Part shown: in pieces, positions 25,108-38,544 of the stretch
How positions within the stretch are numbered: position 1 is the first letter of the stretch
How the letters are laid out: every line of letters begins with the position of its first letter
From: Phragmitibacter flavus
Lineage (GTDB): Bacteria > Verrucomicrobiota > Verrucomicrobiia > Verrucomicrobiales > Verrucomicrobiaceae
DNA length: 64,000 nucleotides
Assembly: GCF_005780165.1 (NCBI RefSeq)
Contig: NZ_VAUV01000011.1
Span: 1 to 64,000 of the forward strand
Direction: 5' to 3'
The notes under the pieces: model-generated
What the model saw: the letters and a program-made list of their open reading frames with translations, nothing else
Database searches by the model: none
Told to the model about the DNA's origin: nothing
Program-made: the position numbers and the translations under genes

Positions 25108-25335
25108 TATCGTAGGGAATCTGACCCGTAAATCGCCACATCGTTCGACGGTGCGCTTGTTAATCTTTGCAAATTAACTGTGATTTGATTCCGCCGAATC
25201 GCTTCATCAGCCCGGTATTGCTTGCCAGCCGACGCTTTCCTGTGGAAAATGCCTCCTTCCTGCGCAGCCTTCCCAAACCGTTCATTCCCTAAGAAAAACA
25301 CCTGCTGATCCGTTCTTGTTGTGAGCAATGCCAAC

Positions 25336-25869
25336 ATGCCATCACAGCCAAGCAAACACCCAGCCGGCGAACTGGTGCAGGAAGCCCTTGCCCAGCACGA
25401 AAGCAACCTCATTGCCTACGCCTGCGGCATTCTCGGTGGAGACGAAGAACGCGCCCGTGATGTTGTGCAGGACACCCTCCTCAAACTGCACCTCGCCGAT
25501 CCCGATCGTGTCCGCGAAAACCTCAAGGCCTGGCTCTACGCCGTCTGCCGCAACCGCGCCTTCGATGTCCTGCGCAAGGAACACCGCATCCGCTTCACTG
25601 ACGACGACGACCATCTCGACTGGCTCGACGAATGGCAACCCGACCCCAGCGAGGACGCCAGTCGCGATGAAATGCTCGAACATGTGTGGGCCGCCCTCGA
25701 ACAGCTCCCGCAAAACCAGCGCGAAGTCATCCGCCTCAAATTCCAACACGGCCTCAGCTACAAGGAAATCAGCACCGTCACCAGCCTCAGCGTCACCAAC
25801 GTCGGTTTTCTGCTGCATACCGCCATCAAACGCCTGCGTAAACTGATGAACCACGCCTGCGCCGAATAA
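25336..25869 (+). CDS. ECF-type RNA polymerase sigma factor
   Basis: A 177-residue sigma-70 family protein with only regions 2 and 4. Region 2: ERARDVVQDTLLKLHLA and LKAWLYAVCRNRAFDVLRKE, the core-binding and -10 recognition part. Region 4: WAALEQLPQNQREVIRLKFQHGLSYKEIS with helix-turn-helix that reads the -35. ATG at 25336 is used; an in-frame GTG lies at 25321. The next gene, 37 bases on, encodes an anti-sigma-type N-terminus with a membrane helix, so the pair is likely an envelope-signal switch that controls its own promoter, as is usual for this class. Confidence 0.9.
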   Translation: MPSQPSKHPAGELVQEALAQHESNLIAYACGILGGDEERARDVVQDTLLKLHLADPDRVRENLKAWLYAVCRNRAFDVLRKEHRIRFTDDDDHLDWLDEWQPDPSEDASRDEMLEHVWAALEQLPQNQREVIRLKFQHGLSYKEISTVTSLSVTNVGFLLHTAIKRLRKLMNHACAE

Positions 25870-25906
25870 CTCACTTTCTCTCCCCCATCCTTCCTTTTTT
25901 TCTTTC

Positions 25907-27343
25907 ATGAATCCCTCCTCCGACTTCGATTCCTACGACGATCCTGACTTCACCGCCTATGCCCTGGGTGAAGCCGATCTGGAGCAAAGCACCCGCGTGC
26001 GCCAGCGTCTCGCCAACGACCCTGTCGCCCGCGCTCGCTTCGACGACCTCCAACAAACCATTGACGCCCTTCAGCAGGCTCCGCTGCCTCCCCGCCGCGC
26101 CCTTCATCCTCGTCAGCGCGAGACCGTCCTCACCATGGGCCAGATCAAGTCGCTGCCCGCCTCCACCCTGCGTCCCCTTCATCACCCGAAACGGTCCAAA
26201 AACGTCGTCTGGCAGATCAGCAAATTCGCAGCCGCCGCCTGTCTCGCCATCGGTGCCTTCTTCGTCGGTCAACGCGTCTCTTCAGCCGACAAAAGCCGTC
26301 CAATGCTGGCGTCGAATGTTGGCCTCGATCAAACCCAAACACCCCCGCCCTCCAAGCCAGCCCTGATGGAGCCGGCTGCACCAACCGTGACCTTGATCGC
26401 CGCGCCGGAACTTCAGAACCACAAGCCGGAAGTCCCGACCGACAGAGCCCTGCTGCCACAGCCTGCGATGCAACCACCCTCCATGGTGCAGCTTCCTCCC
26501 GCATCCATGCTCAATTCCCCCCCGTCCGCATCCGCCCCTCCCGCCGCGAAAGTCGAAATCGCCGCCGCCGCCGCCCCCCAAAAAGCAGTCTCCACCGCTG
26601 GTTTCATCCTCACCACCGACGTTTCAGAATCGCGCTTCGTCTTCAAACCCAACGATGCACGGCCCAAACCCGCAGAATTCGCCGGGATCATCCTTGCCTC
26701 TCCCACCCCCATCATCACCGCTCCTGCCCCTAAAAAATCGACCAAACGCGAGGCCCCCCAGCCACCACTTCAAGTCCGCTCGTGGAAAGCCGAAATTGCC
26801 TCGTGCCCCTGGGATACCGACCGACGTCTGATGCGCCTCGTCGTGCAGATCCCCGTCGACCAGCCCGCCATTGAGTTCAACGAAGCCGAATACCAACTTC
26901 AAACCACTTTCGATCCCAAACAGGTCAGAGCACACCGTCTCGTCGCCGAAAAACACATCCGCCCCACCAGCGGTCGCAACCAGGCCACCCGCATTGTCTG
27001 GTATGAAATCGTTCCCAATACCGGATTCAGCGCCTCCGACGATGCTCCCGCCACTCTTGGCCGACTGAATATCATTCAACCCCGCAACAGTAAATCTGCC
27101 GACGAAAGCAACCTGCCTCTGATGGATCGTGGCGCCATCTGGAAGGACGCACGCGAAGATTTCATTTTTGAAACCGCCATGGTTGGCTTCGGTCTCCTCC
27201 TTCAAGGCAAGGAGAACATCGGCCATCTCAATCACGATCTCGTTCTCAACCTCGCCGAAGAAAGCAGCAGCGAAGTCCCCCAAGGCGAACGCGCCCGCTT
27301 CATCCAAAGCGTCCGCCAAGCCCAAAGGGCCGCAGGGCTCTAA
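25907..27343 (+). CDS. Membrane anti-sigma-like protein with C-terminal DUF3520-like domain
   Basis: A 478-residue protein. Residues 1-55 look like a zinc-less anti-sigma head (DPDFTAYALGEADLEQSTRVRQRLANDP). A membrane helix follows at about 103-122 (FAAAACLAIGAFFVGQRV), then a long Pro/Ala-rich region to about 290. The C-terminus (LMRLVVQIPVDQPA, IVWYEIVPNTGF, GFGLLLQGKENIG) resembles the DUF3520 domain that normally ends YfbK-type proteins. In relatives a von Willebrand factor A domain lies between; here it is absent. It probably binds the sigma factor encoded just upstream and transmits a periplasmic cue. The anti-sigma role is inferred from order and from the N-terminus. Confidence 0.72.
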   Translation: MNPSSDFDSYDDPDFTAYALGEADLEQSTRVRQRLANDPVARARFDDLQQTIDALQQAPLPPRRALHPRQRETVLTMGQIKSLPASTLRPLHHPKRSKNVVWQISKFAAAACLAIGAFFVGQRVSSADKSRPMLASNVGLDQTQTPPPSKPALMEPAAPTVTLIAAPELQNHKPEVPTDRALLPQPAMQPPSMVQLPPASMLNSPPSASAPPAAKVEIAAAAAPQKAVSTAGFILTTDVSESRFVFKPNDARPKPAEFAGIILASPTPIITAPAPKKSTKREAPQPPLQVRSWKAEIASCPWDTDRRLMRLVVQIPVDQPAIEFNEAEYQLQTTFDPKQVRAHRLVAEKHIRPTSGRNQATRIVWYEIVPNTGFSASDDAPATLGRLNIIQPRNSKSADESNLPLMDRGAIWKDAREDFIFETAMVGFGLLLQGKENIGHLNHDLVLNLAEESSSEVPQGERARFIQSVRQAQRAAGL

Positions 27344-28585: not shown

Positions 28586-29713
28586 TCAATCCAATCCCGT
28601 CTTAGGGGCTGGAATACGGATCTGCCCAGGCGGAGGAGGCGGTGGCGGCTTGGCCGGCACAAAATCCACCTCAAATGTCGTCAACTGTCGCTGATAAAAA
28701 TCATTGTTCGTCAGCTCCCACGCACAAGCCGCGTTTGCTGAATCGGCGATCTCTCGAGCCGCCAGATAGGTAGGAATCGCGTCTTTGAACACATAGAACC
28801 AAACCACCGTGTTCGGCTCGCTCCCAAACTTGCGCATGGCCCGCTGAAACACCGATCCCGGTTGTTTCATCGTTGCCACATCCTCGCCACCTCCCGGCTG
28901 CATGCTCAATTTCATGCTCAAGCGACTGCCGTTCGGCGTGCCTGTCAGTTCCACCTTCAAATCCCGCGTGCTCAACCTCATCCGGTCCGCGAAAAAGGCC
29001 GCCAGCTTGCGGCGATCCACAAACTCTTTGGGTTTCCCTCCAGCCATGATGACTTCCCCAAACAAATCCTTGATCTGCCCTTCAAACATCAGAGACTTTT
29101 TCTGTTTTTCTATACCATCAGTGATCACCCGGTAGAACTCCTCGTCATTCAGATAGACCACCTTGGTTCCCACCACCAGAAACCTTTGGATCAAAGCATT
29201 CTCTGGGATGGGTCGCGGATTGGGCAGTTTTACCACGGTCGCTGCTGGCGGAATGTAAACAGGCGTGGTGTCCAGCAGCGCCTTGGTCTTTTCCAGCTCC
29301 TCCAACATGTTCTCAATCACCACCTTGCGCTCATCCCGCACCTTGGTGTTTTTCTCAAGTTGCGCCCGCAGCTCATCGATGTCCACCATCTTCGTTACCT
29401 GGGACTCATCCGTCGTATCCAGCGTCTTCAACTCTTCATCGGACTTTTTGAGATTGTCCTTCGTCAGCAACATCTCCTCCTCAAGCTTCTTCGGATCAAG
29501 CTGCGGTTTCTCCTTCACCAATTCCTCCTTCAATGCTTCAAACTGCTCAACCGTCACCGGTGGCAGTTCGGACAGGATCTTTTCGATCGACACCGCAATG
29601 TTCAAACTGACCATGATCAACACGATCATCAACACCCCCACCACGTTGGTGACGGTATCCATCAGCGAATCCAGGTTCAGTGCGCCATCGCCGTCTGATT
29701 TGCGTTTTGCCAT
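28586..29713 (-). CDS. ExbD/TolR-like protein with extended coiled coil, Asp-bearing
   Basis: A 375-residue single-pass membrane protein. After MAKRKSDGDG comes a membrane helix (about 13-36) with Asp19 in LDSLMDT, the position of the proton-path Asp of ExbD and TolR. A long charged coiled coil (about 45-150) and a periplasmic C-terminal domain follow, with a proline run near the end. ExbD is usually about 140 residues, so this is much longer. It is the last gene of an operon with a second ExbD-like protein and an ExbB-like channel. Such complexes convert the proton gradient into movement or force on a periplasmic target; the target here is unknown. Confidence 0.75.
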   Translation of the reverse strand: MAKRKSDGDGALNLDSLMDTVTNVVGVLMIVLIMVSLNIAVSIEKILSELPPVTVEQFEALKEELVKEKPQLDPKKLEEEMLLTKDNLKKSDEELKTLDTTDESQVTKMVDIDELRAQLEKNTKVRDERKVVIENMLEELEKTKALLDTTPVYIPPAATVVKLPNPRPIPENALIQRFLVVGTKVVYLNDEEFYRVITDGIEKQKKSLMFEGQIKDLFGEVIMAGGKPKEFVDRRKLAAFFADRMRLSTRDLKVELTGTPNGSRLSMKLSMQPGGGEDVATMKQPGSVFQRAMRKFGSEPNTVVWFYVFKDAIPTYLAAREIADSANAACAWELTNNDFYQRQLTTFEVDFVPAKPPPPPPPGQIRIPAPKTGLD

Positions 29714-29742
29714 CGAAGTTTAGTTTGCAGGTAGGAGGTTGA

Positions 29743-30675
29743 TTAGTTGGTCACCGATGCGGTGGGTGCCGGAGCAGCCGCCGGCGGTTTCGGCTCGACC
29801 AGCTTCACGCCTTCCGGAGGCGGAATGGTGCCAAGAAATTCGTTGAACATCTTCAAATCCACCTCACCACGTCCCGGCAAGGGCAGGCGGCCAATCTGGT
29901 CCGCACTGAACTGGTAGGTCGACATCGCCCAGCCCGCCGCCTTGTTAAATGCGTTCATGCCATCGTCCCTCAAAAGGAAAATGATCTTCGATTTGGGCAT
30001 GGCCTTCACCTGTTTCAAATACTCGTTGAAGGCAACGTCCGCCACCACCACCTCATCTGCCGCACTCAGCACCGTCTTCTTCTCGGCATCCCAGTAAACC
30101 GTGATCCTGCCTCCAGAAACCTCCACAAAAAACACCTTGCTCCCCGCCGCCAAACCTGAACCACCTGGCTGCACCACCACCGGCGGAATTGGCTTGTCTT
30201 TCGGAATCTGACGCTTGTTCAACTCCGCCATCAAAAGCTCAAGCTCTTTCTTGATCTCCACCTCCTGTTTCTTGAACCCGTCAATTTCCAACAACAGGTT
30301 GTCCAGCTCCTTCAGCAATTCCTGACTGATCTGCTGGTTCATCTCCTTGATGCTCGCATCCGTCGTCAGCAGCTTCCGCAACCGCGCCACACGCTCCGAC
30401 TTCTGTGCCAGCTCAGCCTTCAGCTTCTCCAGTTGCTCCACCTTTTGATCCACATCCTTCGTCAACTCCTGCTGCTCCTTCTGCTGCTCCAGCATCTTCT
30501 GGTAGTCCTGCGCCAGCTTCATCTCTTCCGGCGTCCTCCCTCCCGTCTCCTGGGATTGTGACACCGCAAGCACCACAATGATCATGATCAACGCGCCAAT
30601 GAGACACGCCAAGATGCTCAGGAACGGAAAAAGCGACACCTCATCACCAGAGGACTTGGAACGACGTTTGGCCAT
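29743..30675 (-). CDS. ExbD-like protein with coiled coil, lacking the Asp
   Basis: A 310-residue single-pass protein. The membrane helix (about 14-37, SLFPFLSILACLIGALIMI) aligns with the Asp-bearing helix of the next gene, but the acidic residue is Ser20 here. A coiled coil (about 50-140, rich in Gln, Lys and Glu) leads to a periplasmic domain (VFFVEVSGGRITVYW) and a Pro/Ala tail. It sits 29 bases upstream of the other ExbD-like gene. A hetero-pair of ExbD-type subunits with only one proton-active member is plausible. The MAKRRSKSSGDE opening is a basic cytoplasmic lead like that of its partner. Confidence 0.75.
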   Translation of the reverse strand: MAKRRSKSSGDEVSLFPFLSILACLIGALIMIIVVLAVSQSQETGGRTPEEMKLAQDYQKMLEQQKEQQELTKDVDQKVEQLEKLKAELAQKSERVARLRKLLTTDASIKEMNQQISQELLKELDNLLLEIDGFKKQEVEIKKELELLMAELNKRQIPKDKPIPPVVVQPGGSGLAAGSKVFFVEVSGGRITVYWDAEKKTVLSAADEVVVADVAFNEYLKQVKAMPKSKIIFLLRDDGMNAFNKAAGWAMSTYQFSADQIGRLPLPGRGEVDLKMFNEFLGTIPPPEGVKLVEPKPPAAAPAPTASVTN

Positions 30676-30721
30676 GATCGATTATGCGGGACTATAACAA
30701 TAGGGGTATCTGTCAGATGGA

Positions 30722-30751
30722 GTTCCCGCCGGGCGCCTGCCCGACTGGAAC
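30722..30751. repeat. Hairpin in the exbB-exbD gap
   Basis: CGGGC (30730-30734) pairs with GCCCG (30739-30743) around a GCCT loop, and outside that GTTCC (30722) pairs with GGAAC (30747). It lies in the 93 bases between the two operon genes and could tune the relative amounts of channel and ExbD-like subunits by transcript processing or attenuation. Confidence 0.45.
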
Positions 30752-30768
30752 ACGGCATCAGTCAGTCA

Positions 30769-32190
30769 TCAGTCGCGGCCGAACCAGCCCTTCTTCTTGA
30801 CGGTCTGCTGCACGATCACCTGTTTCTCACCAAGCTCCTTCAACACCGTGTTCAACCCGCGAATTCCAGTCTCCAGACCACCAATGTATTGGGAAGTCTG
30901 ACGCAAGGTGTCCTTGAGAGACTCCTGCATCTCAGAACGCATGAGCGTCGTGTTGTTGATGAATTCCTTGGTGACCACAGCTTGAAAAGTGTCAGAACGT
31001 TTGTCCAAATTATTGGCATATTCGTTCATTCGTTTTGAAAGCTCGTTCAAATCCACCAAAAATTCCTTCTGCGCACCAGCCACTGCCTGAACCAGCGCAT
31101 CCGCCAGACCGGCAGGCTCCTGATTCCCACCCATGGTCTCCTCCAAACGCGGCAGCAGGATGTCGTTACAAAACGCATCAATGTCGTTGAGGTTGTCATC
31201 TTCCTTCTTGGAGAGCGAACTCATCGGGAACTGAAGAATCATCGCCAGAACCAGACCAAGAAGAGTCGTATCAAACGCCGTGCCCAAACCGCTGGTCACC
31301 TGGCTGATGGAACCGATGATCTTGTCCACGTCTTTTGCATCCGACAAATCCATGCTTCCGATGGCCTGCGACAGACCGAGAACGGTTCCGATGAAACCCA
31401 GAATTGGAATTGCCCAAAGGAACACCTTCAACAGCGCATAACTACCGCCCACGCGGTTGGCATCAATGTCCGACTGGCTCGACATCATTCCACCCACAGC
31501 CGAGGTGCTTTGCTTGATCTCAAACAACTCCAGCCCCTTGCGAATGCGGTTCACCATCAAGCTGTCACGCAAACGGTGAGGAAGGTTGTAAACGTGGTCA
31601 ATGAAGCTTCCGATGTTCTTGGAGTTGATCTCACGACCCAGCTCCATCGGCAGCACATCCAGCAACAACGCCTCACGCTGATGACGCAACTTCTGCAATT
31701 TCAAATACACAATGCCCATCGCCCAGGTGAAGAAGAACGTTTCTGCAAAGTTCACCCAGGTGCGCTGAATGAACATCGCCGCCAGATACTGCATGAAATT
31801 GTATTCTGAAGACGGCGTCTCAGGACTTGGATTGAACGGATACAAGATCCCATACCATGCCACGAACAACACCGCGCCAATCCCCAAGCTCAACCAGATG
31901 CTCGGGTTCGCAGGATCGGCCTCTTTCCAGCCCTCGCGCTGCGGTTTGGATTGTTGAAAACTCAAATCACCACCTGAGGTGGAAGAATAATCCCCGTGTG
32001 TGGTCGACGCAGCCGCCGGAGCGCTCGCAGCTCCCAAAGCAGGACCCGCCGCATCAGGAGCAGGCATCTCAGCCGCCGGATCTCCAGGAATTTGTAGCTT
32101 CGTGTTGCAGCCAGGGCATCGCACAACTTTACCGACCCATTCAGGCTCGGCCTTCAAACTCATTGAACAGGAGGGGCACTTAAACTTCAT
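30769..32190 (-). CDS. MotA/TolQ/ExbB-type proton channel with N-terminal zinc ribbon
   Basis: A 473-residue protein. It starts with a zinc ribbon: Cys5-x2-Cys8 and Cys25-x2-Cys28 (MKFKCPSC, RCPGC). An Ala-rich linker follows, then a first membrane helix (about 100-120), a second (about 140-165) and the conserved ExbB/TolQ pair of helices (FLWAIPILGFIGTVLGLSQAI and TSGLGTAFDTTLLGLVLAMIL). The C-terminal 120 residues are a coiled coil with heptads. The start at 32190 puts the ribbon at the N-terminus. It is first in a three-gene operon with two ExbD-like genes; the promoter should be in 32191-32350. Confidence 0.85.
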   Translation of the reverse strand: MKFKCPSCSMSLKAEPEWVGKVVRCPGCNTKLQIPGDPAAEMPAPDAAGPALGAASAPAAASTTHGDYSSTSGGDLSFQQSKPQREGWKEADPANPSIWLSLGIGAVLFVAWYGILYPFNPSPETPSSEYNFMQYLAAMFIQRTWVNFAETFFFTWAMGIVYLKLQKLRHQREALLLDVLPMELGREINSKNIGSFIDHVYNLPHRLRDSLMVNRIRKGLELFEIKQSTSAVGGMMSSQSDIDANRVGGSYALLKVFLWAIPILGFIGTVLGLSQAIGSMDLSDAKDVDKIIGSISQVTSGLGTAFDTTLLGLVLAMILQFPMSSLSKKEDDNLNDIDAFCNDILLPRLEETMGGNQEPAGLADALVQAVAGAQKEFLVDLNELSKRMNEYANNLDKRSDTFQAVVTKEFINNTTLMRSEMQESLKDTLRQTSQYIGGLETGIRGLNTVLKELGEKQVIVQQTVKKKGWFGRD

Positions 32191-36474: not shown

Positions 36475-36786
36475 TTATCCTTTCCCAAACGTCTCCCACA
36501 TCGTCCCCTCATGAAAAGCCGCTGGCATCTCCGCCAGCCATTTCCCTACCAGCCACGACATCAACCAAAGCAACCCCATTCCCATAACCACCTGCATCGC
36601 GACGGTCAGTAAATACCAATCCTTCTTTGCCACTGCCTCAACCGTCGTCTTCTCCCGATAACACGCGCCGCAAACCATCTTCCCCTCCAGACTCGTCACG
36701 CACTCACGACAAAAAACCTGCGCACAAGCCGTGCAACGGGCCGCCGCCTCACGCTTGGGATGATTGAGACACTGCACCTGAGCCAT
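36475..36786 (-). CDS. B-box-type zinc-binding membrane protein, 103 aa
   Basis: A 103-residue protein. Residues 1-44 form a B-box-like zinc finger (CLNHPKREAAARCTACAQVFCRECV and MVCGACYRE, eight Cys/His), and residues 57-83 a membrane helix. Proteins with this N-terminus in bacteria are usually small and membrane-anchored, of unknown role. It lies 6 bases after the next gene on the same strand and is the last of a run of zinc-ribbon and GYF_2 genes. Confidence 0.72.
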   Translation of the reverse strand: MAQVQCLNHPKREAAARCTACAQVFCRECVTSLEGKMVCGACYREKTTVEAVAKKDWYLLTVAMQVVMGMGLLWLMSWLVGKWLAEMPAAFHEGTMWETFGKG

Positions 36787-36792
36787 ACTTCC

Positions 36793-37893
36793 TCATCCTC
36801 CTTCATTTGAATCATCCTGCAAAGGACGCAGTTCCGTTTGGCCACCCGACGCCACCATCGGCGGTGGCACCGCCGCCTGGGGCACTTTTCTCCACCAGCC
36901 GCCCGCCACCATCAACACGCCCAATACCGCTAGCAATCCGCCCAGGCCCATCATCAAAAAGCCCCAGACACCCGCCTGCTCCATGGAGAAATTAGCCGCT
37001 CCCTCCGCCATCTCGGGCAGTGTCAACGTTCTTCCCCCACTCCCGGCATTGACCCCCGACATCACACTTACGGCAATGAACATCACATACAACCCCACCC
37101 CCGACAACACCTGCAACACCACTGATGTCCACATCAATCCTTTCAAACCCGGAGAAGTGGAAAACGACATCACCCTCACCAGCCCCACCAACACCAGCAA
37201 GAATGCCACCAGCCCCAGCAAAACGTCGGTCACTAAAAACGCCACGCCATTGACCCACAGTTCACCCGCCACCGCCAGCCCCCAAAGCAACATCGTTACC
37301 CCCGCCGCCATCACCCAGGCCGATCCCGGCCACGCCGGTTTCCCATGAGCCGTTGGCAATCCTGGTGGTCCGGGAACCGCAGTCGCCAAAGGCACCGCTG
37401 ACACTTCCGATGAAGGCATCTCCCCCTGCCTCTCCAAACAGATCTTCTCCAACGCATCCATCACCCGAAGCGCCTGCCGCTCCCGCTTCAGCGCCTTCAG
37501 CTTCAACACCTGCACGGACGTCTGCACCATGCACCGGCACGAAGGCCCCTTTTGCAGATGCACCACCAACACGAGCAACAATCCCAGCGCCGCAATGGCC
37601 AAAGTCAGCGCCAACCCCGACATCTCCCCATACGCCAACCATGCGCCCATCCCCAAACCTGCCACCCCCATTGCCTGCAGCACGCCCAGCCAGATCCACG
37701 AAGAAGTCCTCACCAAACTCAGCGCCTGAATGTTTTTGTAATCGATGCGCCGATACCGCTCCACAAACGCCCAAAACACCCCCCGTCCCTCGACCACCAA
37801 CATATGGTCCGTCCCCTGCCACAAACTACCTCGAACTCCATGAGTCCCCGCCAGCCATCGGTAGTCTTCAAACGCCTTTTTCATTTTGTTCAA
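36793..37893 (-). CDS. Polytopic membrane protein, 366 aa
   Basis: I do not recognise this protein. It has a soluble N-terminal 60 residues (YRWLAGTHGVRGSLWQGTDHMLVVE), two membrane helices (about 67-110), a soluble middle with a Cys pair (GPSCRCMVQTSVQ), a Pro-rich linker and four more helices (about 190-340), with a short polar tail. The opening segment looks like a small beta domain similar to a PH or bPH-type fold. It lies between two zinc-ribbon membrane proteins, 9 bases from one and 6 from the other, so it is part of the same operon. Confidence 0.68.
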   Translation of the reverse strand: MNKMKKAFEDYRWLAGTHGVRGSLWQGTDHMLVVEGRGVFWAFVERYRRIDYKNIQALSLVRTSSWIWLGVLQAMGVAGLGMGAWLAYGEMSGLALTLAIAALGLLLVLVVHLQKGPSCRCMVQTSVQVLKLKALKRERQALRVMDALEKICLERQGEMPSSEVSAVPLATAVPGPPGLPTAHGKPAWPGSAWVMAAGVTMLLWGLAVAGELWVNGVAFLVTDVLLGLVAFLLVLVGLVRVMSFSTSPGLKGLMWTSVVLQVLSGVGLYVMFIAVSVMSGVNAGSGGRTLTLPEMAEGAANFSMEQAGVWGFLMMGLGGLLAVLGVLMVAGGWWRKVPQAAVPPPMVASGGQTELRPLQDDSNEGG

Positions 37894-37902
37894 CTCATCA
37901 AC

Positions 37903-38544
37903 TCACAGCTCCGTCCAGAAATGCACCAACGCAACCACCCCGACCACCCAGGCAAGCAACTGCAACACTGCGAGACCCACTCCCATCATCAGCCGACCGC
38001 GCCCTCTCGGCACCAAACCCCTCGGTGCATTCCAATACCTCAACCCCAGAAACAACGCCGCCGGAGCCGCCACCAACGTCAGCATGATCGAAAATACCGC
38101 GAACGCATAAAACAATACCGTGAACACAAAAATCAGCGACAACAGCCATGGCCCCACCGACAGCCCCAGCACCACGTTGTCCCATAACACCCGTTTCGCC
38201 TGAAACTTCGTATCTGCCCCCTTCGTCCGCAATTCATCCAGACACTTCAAACAGACCACTTCCTCCCCCCACGTCGCCACCCAGGCGTCCGAAACAAAAA
38301 CCCCGCAATGCGAGCAACTCTTGGTCGCCACCCTGACAGGATCATAAAAACACCGCGTCTCCCCCAACTGAATTTCGCCTTCATTTGATGGAAGCGCCGG
38401 TGGCCGGCTCGCCACTCCAAACACTGCCGGCAAAACCCGCACCTCCAGCCGACGCCGACACGTGCCGCAGCTCGACACCGGCTGACCGCGAAAAATCGCC
38501 GCCTGCTGCGTCGCCCCGCATCCCGCGCATCTCACCCAGGCCAT
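37903..38544 (-). CDS. Zinc-ribbon membrane protein, 213 aa
   Basis: A 213-residue protein with two zinc-binding modules at the N-terminus: CAGCGA...CGTCRR (about 6-30) and CSHCGVF...CLKCLDE (about 76-104), followed by two long hydrophobic segments (about 125-175) and a third near the C-terminus (about 185-212). The cysteine spacing is that of double-zinc ribbons and B-box-like fingers. Unknown role; probably acts with the flanking membrane proteins. 28 bases separate it from the upstream RDD gene. Confidence 0.7.
   Translation of the reverse strand: MAWVRCAGCGATQQAAIFRGQPVSSCGTCRRRLEVRVLPAVFGVASRPPALPSNEGEIQLGETRCFYDPVRVATKSCSHCGVFVSDAWVATWGEEVVCLKCLDELRTKGADTKFQAKRVLWDNVVLGLSVGPWLLSLIFVFTVLFYAFAVFSIMLTLVAAPAALFLGLRYWNAPRGLVPRGRGRLMMGVGLAVLQLLAWVVGVVALVHFWTEL

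Follow-up and report, generated by a model that had tools for sequence, protein, structure and literature searches.

We analysed a stretch of 64,000 nucleotides of Phragmitibacter flavus (contig NZ_VAUV01000011.1, positions 1 to 64,000; the window), in which three genes, exbB, exbS and exbD, form an operon that probably encodes an ion-driven energiser of the bacterial envelope. The three open reading frames (ORFs) all lie on the reverse strand, with intergenic gaps of 93 nt between exbB and exbS and 29 nt between exbS and exbD. ExbB is the channel subunit, and the two others are ExbD-like axle subunits; the one with Ser20 is named ExbS here, the one with Asp19 ExbD. An earlier note on this DNA had described the three genes as one operon, the lengths of 310 and 375 amino acids for the two ExbD-like proteins, and Ser20 in the shorter against Asp19 in the longer. 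All of this is found in the window, and the operon recurs in relatives. What the note overlooked is Asp15 of ExbD, which sits one helical turn from Asp19. The positions of the genes and of the features discussed below are collected in Table 1.

Table 1. Genes and features of the exbB-exbS-exbD operon, with positions in the window.
Feature	Position	Strand	Remarks
exbB	30769..32190	-	473 amino acids from ATG; first of the three genes
exbS	29743..30675	-	310 amino acids; second gene; ExbD-like axle subunit without membrane Asp
exbD	28586..29713	-	375 amino acids; third gene; ExbD-like axle subunit with Asp15 and Asp19
Zinc ribbon of ExbB, Cys5 to Cys28	32107..32178	-	Cys invariance; LysW-like
ExbB Asp307-Thr308-Thr309, last membrane helix	31264..31272	-	Thr308 is Ala in the Asp-type version; PomA alignment
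ExbB Thr269	31384..31386	-	aligned to PomA T158; invariant in the 44-homologue alignment
ExbS Ser20	30616..30618	-	Asp in the other version
ExbS predicted 107-residue helix, residues 49-155	30211..30531	-	AlphaFold2 model
ExbS C-terminal domain, residues 172-281, TolR/ExbD-like fold (likely)	29833..30162	-	TolR 5by4 match
ExbD Asp15	29669..29671	-	Val in the other version
ExbD Asp19	29657..29659	-	kept in both versions
ExbD C-terminal domain, residues 172-349, TolR-like core with insertions (likely)	28667..29200	-	TolR 5by4 match

ExbB belongs to the MotA/ExbB family, since it scores 46.5 bits against Pfam MotA_ExbB (PF01618) at a cut-off of 22.9, and by our own reading of its sequence it has four membrane helices and a C-terminal tail ending in GWFGRD. 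The N-terminal zinc ribbon that had been proposed for it is borne out: Cys5, Cys8, Cys25 and Cys28 are invariant in 44 aligned homologues, the C-x2-C...C-x2-C pattern is present in 105 of the 109 loci with an ExbB of the window's family, and the ribbon resembles LysW (phmmer E 0.0023). The four loci negative for the pattern (L064, L111, L146 and L162) have half of it only, or a later protein start. T269 and T309 are kept in the 44-homologue alignment, and Asp307 is nearly invariant in the window's family, the equivalent residue of PomA being Leu. A basic KKGWF motif is also conserved at the C-terminus (30769-30800) in the consensus of the alignment.

The single-chain AlphaFold2 model of ExbS (mean predicted local distance difference test score, pLDDT, 89.4) consists of a membrane helix at residues 16-44, one uninterrupted helix at 49-155 and the C-terminal domain. 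That of ExbD (mean pLDDT 81.0) has a helix at residues 14-49, then broken helices at 55-68, 74-97 and 112-149, and a larger C-terminal domain. The long coiled coils claimed for both proteins therefore find their counterpart in predicted long periplasmic helices, unbroken in ExbS (49-155) and broken in ExbD (55-149). The C-terminal folds of both proteins are likely to be TolR/ExbD-like. In the structure comparison by VIA, the first match of the ExbS domain is TolR 5by4 (Z 7.5, root-mean-square deviation, rmsd, 3.6, 88 residues), followed by the unrelated 7yea at Z 6.1 and by ExbD structures at 6.0, 5.9 and 5.8; the first match of the ExbD domain is again TolR 5by4 (Z 5.8, rmsd 3.2, 93 residues), with the next entry at 3.7. 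Foldseek also places TolR first for ExbS (E 0.0038). The tail of ExbD (28586-28600) reads PK-x-x-LD-like, its last Asp being invariant in 18 homologues and more than 90% conserved in 42, and an insert of about 140 residues in the C-terminal region of ExbD at L055, L061 and other Prosthecobacter-type loci brings the protein to about 510-520 amino acids.

The operon is conserved among relatives. The window's ExbD is matched in 40 of 57 near genomes, among them 33 of the 36 genomes of its own family, its own genome included. A search over the phylum with alignment A1 matched 28 of 387 genomes at E 0.001; several of the 28 are weak hits that fall to other families of ExbD-like proteins. At the level of contigs 291 relatives were reported, and the best 80 of these 291, which we analysed, span Verrucomicrobium, Phragmitibacter, Prosthecobacter, Brevifollis, Chthoniobacter, Spartobacteria, Akkermansiaceae, Roseibacillus and one Opitutus metagenome-assembled genome, among others. 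The full trio is present at 108 of the 121 loci with any match, a count that includes some contigs twice, from two collections. In 107 of the 108 complete loci the genes share strand and order and are separated by short gaps; at L136, the remaining one, the start call produces an overlap of 274 nt. Among the 13 incomplete loci, 10 stop at a contig end beside the missing gene and three (L067-L069) belong to other families. The plasmids searched with ExbD gave no match. Genus g12 of family f2, with genomes of 2.2-3.3 Mb, has no exbD match among those listed, implying that the energiser may be dispensable in some lineages.

The membrane helices of ExbS and ExbD can be aligned with each other, as had been proposed, and they co-vary. 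Each of the 95 readable distinct ExbS/ExbD pairs follows one of two patterns, and no other combination occurs. In the Asp version (54 pairs) ExbS has Asp and ExbD has Val-x3-Asp, while in the Ser version (41 pairs, the window included) ExbS has Ser and ExbD has Asp-x3-Asp. Both versions thus contain two acids per pair, and the second acid changes subunit. The count derives from 115 rows, which after removal of 16 repeats left 99 distinct pairs, four of them unreadable owing to a cut ORF or a late start call; it covers the loci with both exbS and exbD, apart from L067-L069. The asymmetry proposed in the earlier note is consequently real in the window, where ExbS has no Asp, and it is not fixed in the family. 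An acid in place of Ser20 in homologues, which the note had named as a point that could speak against the asymmetry, is found in part: Asp stands at the Ser20 position itself in the 54 pairs, so that the asymmetry is one of two versions, compensated by Asp15 of the partner.

The switch extends to the channel subunit. Among 1,038 alignment columns (417 of ExbB, 269 of ExbS and 352 of ExbD, overly gapped columns left out), 13 split the two versions completely, with no residue shared between them: ExbB 143, 144, 145, 150, 256 and 308, ExbS 14, 16 and 20, and ExbD 13, 15, 16 and 36. They are located in or beside membrane segments, as placed by the AlphaFold2 helices for ExbS and ExbD and by our own reading of hydrophobic stretches for ExbB; the coiled coils and heads contain none of them. 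ExbB 308, for example, is Thr in all 40 Ser-type rows and Ala in all 52 Asp-type rows.

The two versions are interleaved in the phylogeny. A tree of 92 rows was computed with LG from the ExbB sequences together with ExbS and ExbD bodies stripped of their membrane segments. It requires a minimum of four changes of version on strongly supported branches, and both genes switch together in four of four contrasts. Forcing the 52 Asp-type rows together is rejected, with a log-likelihood lower by 769 and a p-AU (approximately unbiased test) of 0.000174. Within one genus, the Ser-type L052 and the Asp-type L054 are 71% identical in the bodies of ExbS and 82% in those of ExbD, and their membrane segments are of opposite version. 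Likewise, the window, of the Ser type, is closer to the Asp-type L045 (58% and 54% for the ExbS and ExbD bodies) than to the Ser-type L055 (45% and 40%). The strict pairing, the linked channel columns and the repeated interchange together argue for a heterodimer of ExbS and ExbD in one channel.

We therefore consider the operon to encode an ion-driven energiser of the 5:2 class, in which an ExbB pentamer surrounds one ExbS and one ExbD helix (5:1:1), with a probability of about 0.6. In such a machine the pentamer would encircle an axle made of the two helices, both axle proteins would extend into the periplasm as long helices, reaching about 16 nm for ExbS (107 residues x 0.15 nm), and their TolR/ExbD-like heads would contact peptidoglycan or an outer-membrane partner. 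Ion flow through the channel would move, presumably by rotation, the axle against the pentamer. Force generation and the reach across the envelope are what would be expected from the family and from the predicted length. The ion path would exist in two whole versions, one with an acid on each axle helix (Asp version) and one, as in the window, with an acid-less ExbS helix beside an ExbD helix that has two acids one turn apart (Ser version). Models of ExbBD, TolQR and MotAB have two like Asp residues, one per axle helix, taking turns. The family thus offers natural variants of the acids that are needed, of their placement on the same or different helices and of the ion-setting residues, and it lends support to a heterodimeric axle in operons that combine one channel gene with two axle genes.

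It is less likely that ExbS and ExbD form two homodimeric axles sharing one ExbB, the Ser-type ExbS complex being a non-conducting regulatory or structural form. An acid-less axle indeed cannot carry ions by the usual scheme, and the pairing of AglQ and AglS is likewise left open in the available excerpt of PMC9389320; yet the ExbS and ExbD versions never mix in the 95 pairs, and, in either version, one and the same ExbB would need to accommodate each of the two homodimers. Somewhat less likely still, in our view, is a scenario in which recombination or transfer has exchanged the two versions as blocks of old alleles and the subunits are not functionally linked today. Such an exchange would avoid the repeated reversal of 13 sites by single mutations, which is unlikely, and contigs in metagenome bins may be misplaced. 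The sites, however, are spread over three genes, and the diverged bodies between them do not follow the version, so that several tracts would need to move together. The synonymous codons of the segments, compared in 28 of the 92 rows, are no more alike in Ser-type clades (0.36-0.57) than in Asp-type ones (0.36-0.62) and give no sign of a recent exchange of membrane segments, although they look saturated and an old exchange is still compatible with them. A Zorya-like defence module is very improbable: ExbB does match the PADLOC model of ZorA2 at 6.5e-14, but it reaches only 25.7 bits against the NCBIfam ZorA cut-off of 100, Pfam lists no OmpA domain for ExbS or ExbD, and no zor gene lies among the ten neighbours scanned.

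On top of the 5:1:1 energiser, the linked switch might change the driving ion, with Na+ for the Ser version and H+ for the Asp version, which we hold to be possible and yet doubtful. In a profile alignment (E 0.005), ExbB Thr269, Thr308 and Thr309 align with PomA T158, T185 and T186, the residue numbers being our own, counted from the chain positions shown in the alignment. According to the excerpts available of the papers cited here, these PomA residues coordinate Na+, T158 and T185 being Ala in H+ stators, and a further Na+ site involves PomB T21 and D24 as binding residues (PMC10374538); each of T158A, T185A and T186A abolishes motility (PMC6677748). Since the flipping threonine at ExbB 308 is aligned with PomA T185, a Na+/H+ switch is possible. 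The Na+ ligands would be the three pore threonines, as in PomA, together with Asp15, Ser16 and Asp19 of ExbD, whereas the Asp version has Ala at the PomA T185 position and Ala at ExbD 16, consistent with H+. ExbD 16, Ser or Ala by version, lies three residues before the Asp, like the Na+-coordinating PomB T21, and ExbB 143-150 and ExbD 36, which our own reading places on the periplasmic side, flip as well.

On the other side, T269 is Thr in both versions, unlike in H+ stators. NqrB, taken as a marker of sodium energetics, was found in none of the 41 genomes searched, which represent both versions, whereas 4 of 14 controls gave a match. The sister trio L213 has the Asp pattern and still Thr-Thr, and the canonical ExbB at L169 in the window's own genome also has Thr there. 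In the excerpt of PMC6677748, motility survives the PomB-T21A change, and PomA-T185A disrupts complex formation as well, so that the site may serve assembly, which counts against an ion switch. The whole proposition, that an obligate heterodimeric axle flips in three proteins between a split-acid, proton-type pore and a sodium-type threonine pore with both acids on a single helix, is a shade more doubtful again; were it true, ion choice would be a module of 13 residues in three proteins, and the two acids held to drive 5:2 motors could lie together on one half of the axle.

Several observations weigh against the energiser as we read it, or against parts of it. With only four contrasts, a sign test cannot go below 0.125. 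The tree was built quickly and drew long-branch warnings, and its input includes the ExbB columns that track the version, although these membrane columns would, if anything, pull equal versions together. All folding was of single chains, with which two separate homodimers stay compatible. The VIA Z-scores are moderate, all below 8, with the unrelated 7yea in second place for ExbS, and for ExbD Foldseek lists TolR 40th and gives no convincing match. The PomA alignment is weak, its E of 0.005 ranking below chance-like coiled-coil matches to apolipoproteins. Over the loci of the 92 rows, no neighbouring gene is conserved at more than 15, which names no target.

Sister families add to this side of the balance. 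The same phylum contains a family of shorter trios, of which we analysed 22 loci, the partner being seen in 21. In 12 of these 21 pairs the first subunit is acid-less at the place of Asp20 and the second has Asp-x3-Asp, and in two the first has Asp and the second lacks an acid four before its Asp. The other seven, all of family f32, have Asn together with Ser-x3-Asp, i.e. one acid at these places, and all three trios of family f18 have Asp together with Glu-x3-Asp, i.e. three acids. Arg143 and Thr308-Thr309 are moreover present in all aligned outgroup ExbBs, including those of the Asp-bearing L213, L214, L067 and L069. The strict two-acid rule and, since the outgroups keep these channel residues regardless of the acid, the channel part of the link thus appear particular to the window's family, and as general rules the two-acid rule and the threonine link are refuted. 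The second-subunit Asp is kept in every pair read, and an acid-less axle subunit occurs in several families. The outgroup residues hint at the Ser type as the older form of the channel, with the tree leaving the direction unfixed. The f32 loci with Asn and a single Asp (L231-L233 and L235-L238) are possible one-acid motors.

By the tests that we ran, the trio falls outside the Tol, Mot and Zorya types, as claimed before, and outside the ordinary ExbD operons. TolB_N has no match in the own genome, whereas 3 of 14 control genomes have one, and no tonB is found among the ten neighbours scanned with Pfam, no genome-wide search for it having been made. From ExbBD and TolQR, with which it shares the channel family and the likely C-terminal fold, the operon differs in the length of its axle proteins and in their lack of a Pfam ExbD match. 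Neither ExbS nor ExbD of the window matches Pfam ExbD (PF02472) at E up to 1, and Pfam ExbD is absent among the families listed for their homologues (25 of 37 for 59 ExbS members, 21 for 42 ExbD members); the own genome has eight Pfam ExbD matches, none of them inside the operon. In the excerpt of PMC12505986, homologues of ExbD and TolR mostly fall below the detection thresholds of that study. As to a membrane Asp in each axle subunit, by which the ExbD family may be recognised, ExbD has it in both versions and ExbS lacks it in 41 of 95 pairs. Across Pfam, NCBIfam and PADLOC, ExbS and ExbD have weak matches only, for the most part to coiled-coil models.

Other systems resemble the operon in part. 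ZorAB is alike in that ExbB resembles ZorA and continues into a long C-terminal tail, and it differs by its ZorB-type OmpA domain, which is absent here, by the two axle genes of the window and by the zor genes, of which none stands beside the trio. The PomAB sodium stator shares the aligned threonines T269, T308 and T309, whereas in the window the axle would combine two unlike long proteins whose modelled heads are TolR-like, and ExbB has Asp307 in place of the Leu of PomA. The gliding motor AglRQS of Myxococcus, as described in the excerpt of PMC9389320, likewise combines one MotA homologue with two MotB homologues; AglQ and AglS are both predicted to have a conserved Asp, unlike ExbS of the window, and their pairing is unknown.

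A channel gene accompanied by two distinct TolR-like genes has been described before, and exbD1/exbD2 systems appear in the literature. In the available part of PMC12204202, operons of the Planctomycetes-Verrucomicrobia-Chlamydiae (PVC) group contain a tolQ-like gene, paired heterologous tolR-like genes, and tetratricopeptide repeat (TPR) and von Willebrand factor A (vWA) genes; vWA axles occur mostly in heterologous pairs, and heterologous axle pairs are proposed. These operons share with the window one channel, two different TolR-like genes and the superphylum, but none of the scanned neighbours is a TPR or vWA gene. Titles and beginnings of abstracts of the papers that our literature searches listed revealed no Asp-less ExbD paired with a D-x3-D partner, and the excerpts of PMC12505986 and PMC12215075 contain nothing on an Asp-less axle subunit with a moved acid. 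The own genome also has canonical ExbB-ExbD-ExbD operons, L169 and L170 (contigs C2 and C12), with Asp in both ExbDs and no acid four before it. L169, whose ExbDs are short, is preceded by a long protein and followed by a vWA-like protein (own reading), and thus resembles the PVC transducer operons in the excerpt of PMC12204202.

The genes adjoining the trio are gpsA (160 nt upstream), plsY and an aldo/keto reductase gene, and the ten neighbours scanned with Pfam comprise AAA, an extracytoplasmic function (ECF) sigma factor, YfbK_C, aldo/keto reductase, gpsA, plsY, LptA/LptD_N, DUF502 and two unmatched proteins. The earlier note had seen no target, and the neighbour survey agrees: its widest cluster, an unnamed one, is present at 15 of 92 loci, followed by an ABC-type (ATP-binding cassette) ATPase (13), nusB-like (11), ftsY-like (10) and ribH-like (9) genes, gpsA (8) and plsY (6). 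The names of the clusters come from our reading of a single representative of each, and the counts are lower bounds because many contigs are short. In five loci, all of the Ser type (e.g. L134:3937-5751), a BatA-like protein by our own reading stands directly upstream of the trio; given the vWA transducers in print, it is a possible partner. Elsewhere in the window, a short run of proteins at 36475-38544 has Cys-rich, zinc-finger-like ends and hydrophobic stretches, two of them scanned with no Pfam match. At 25321-27343 the ECF sigma factor is followed by the YfbK_C protein, which has no vWA match and is perhaps an anti-sigma factor.

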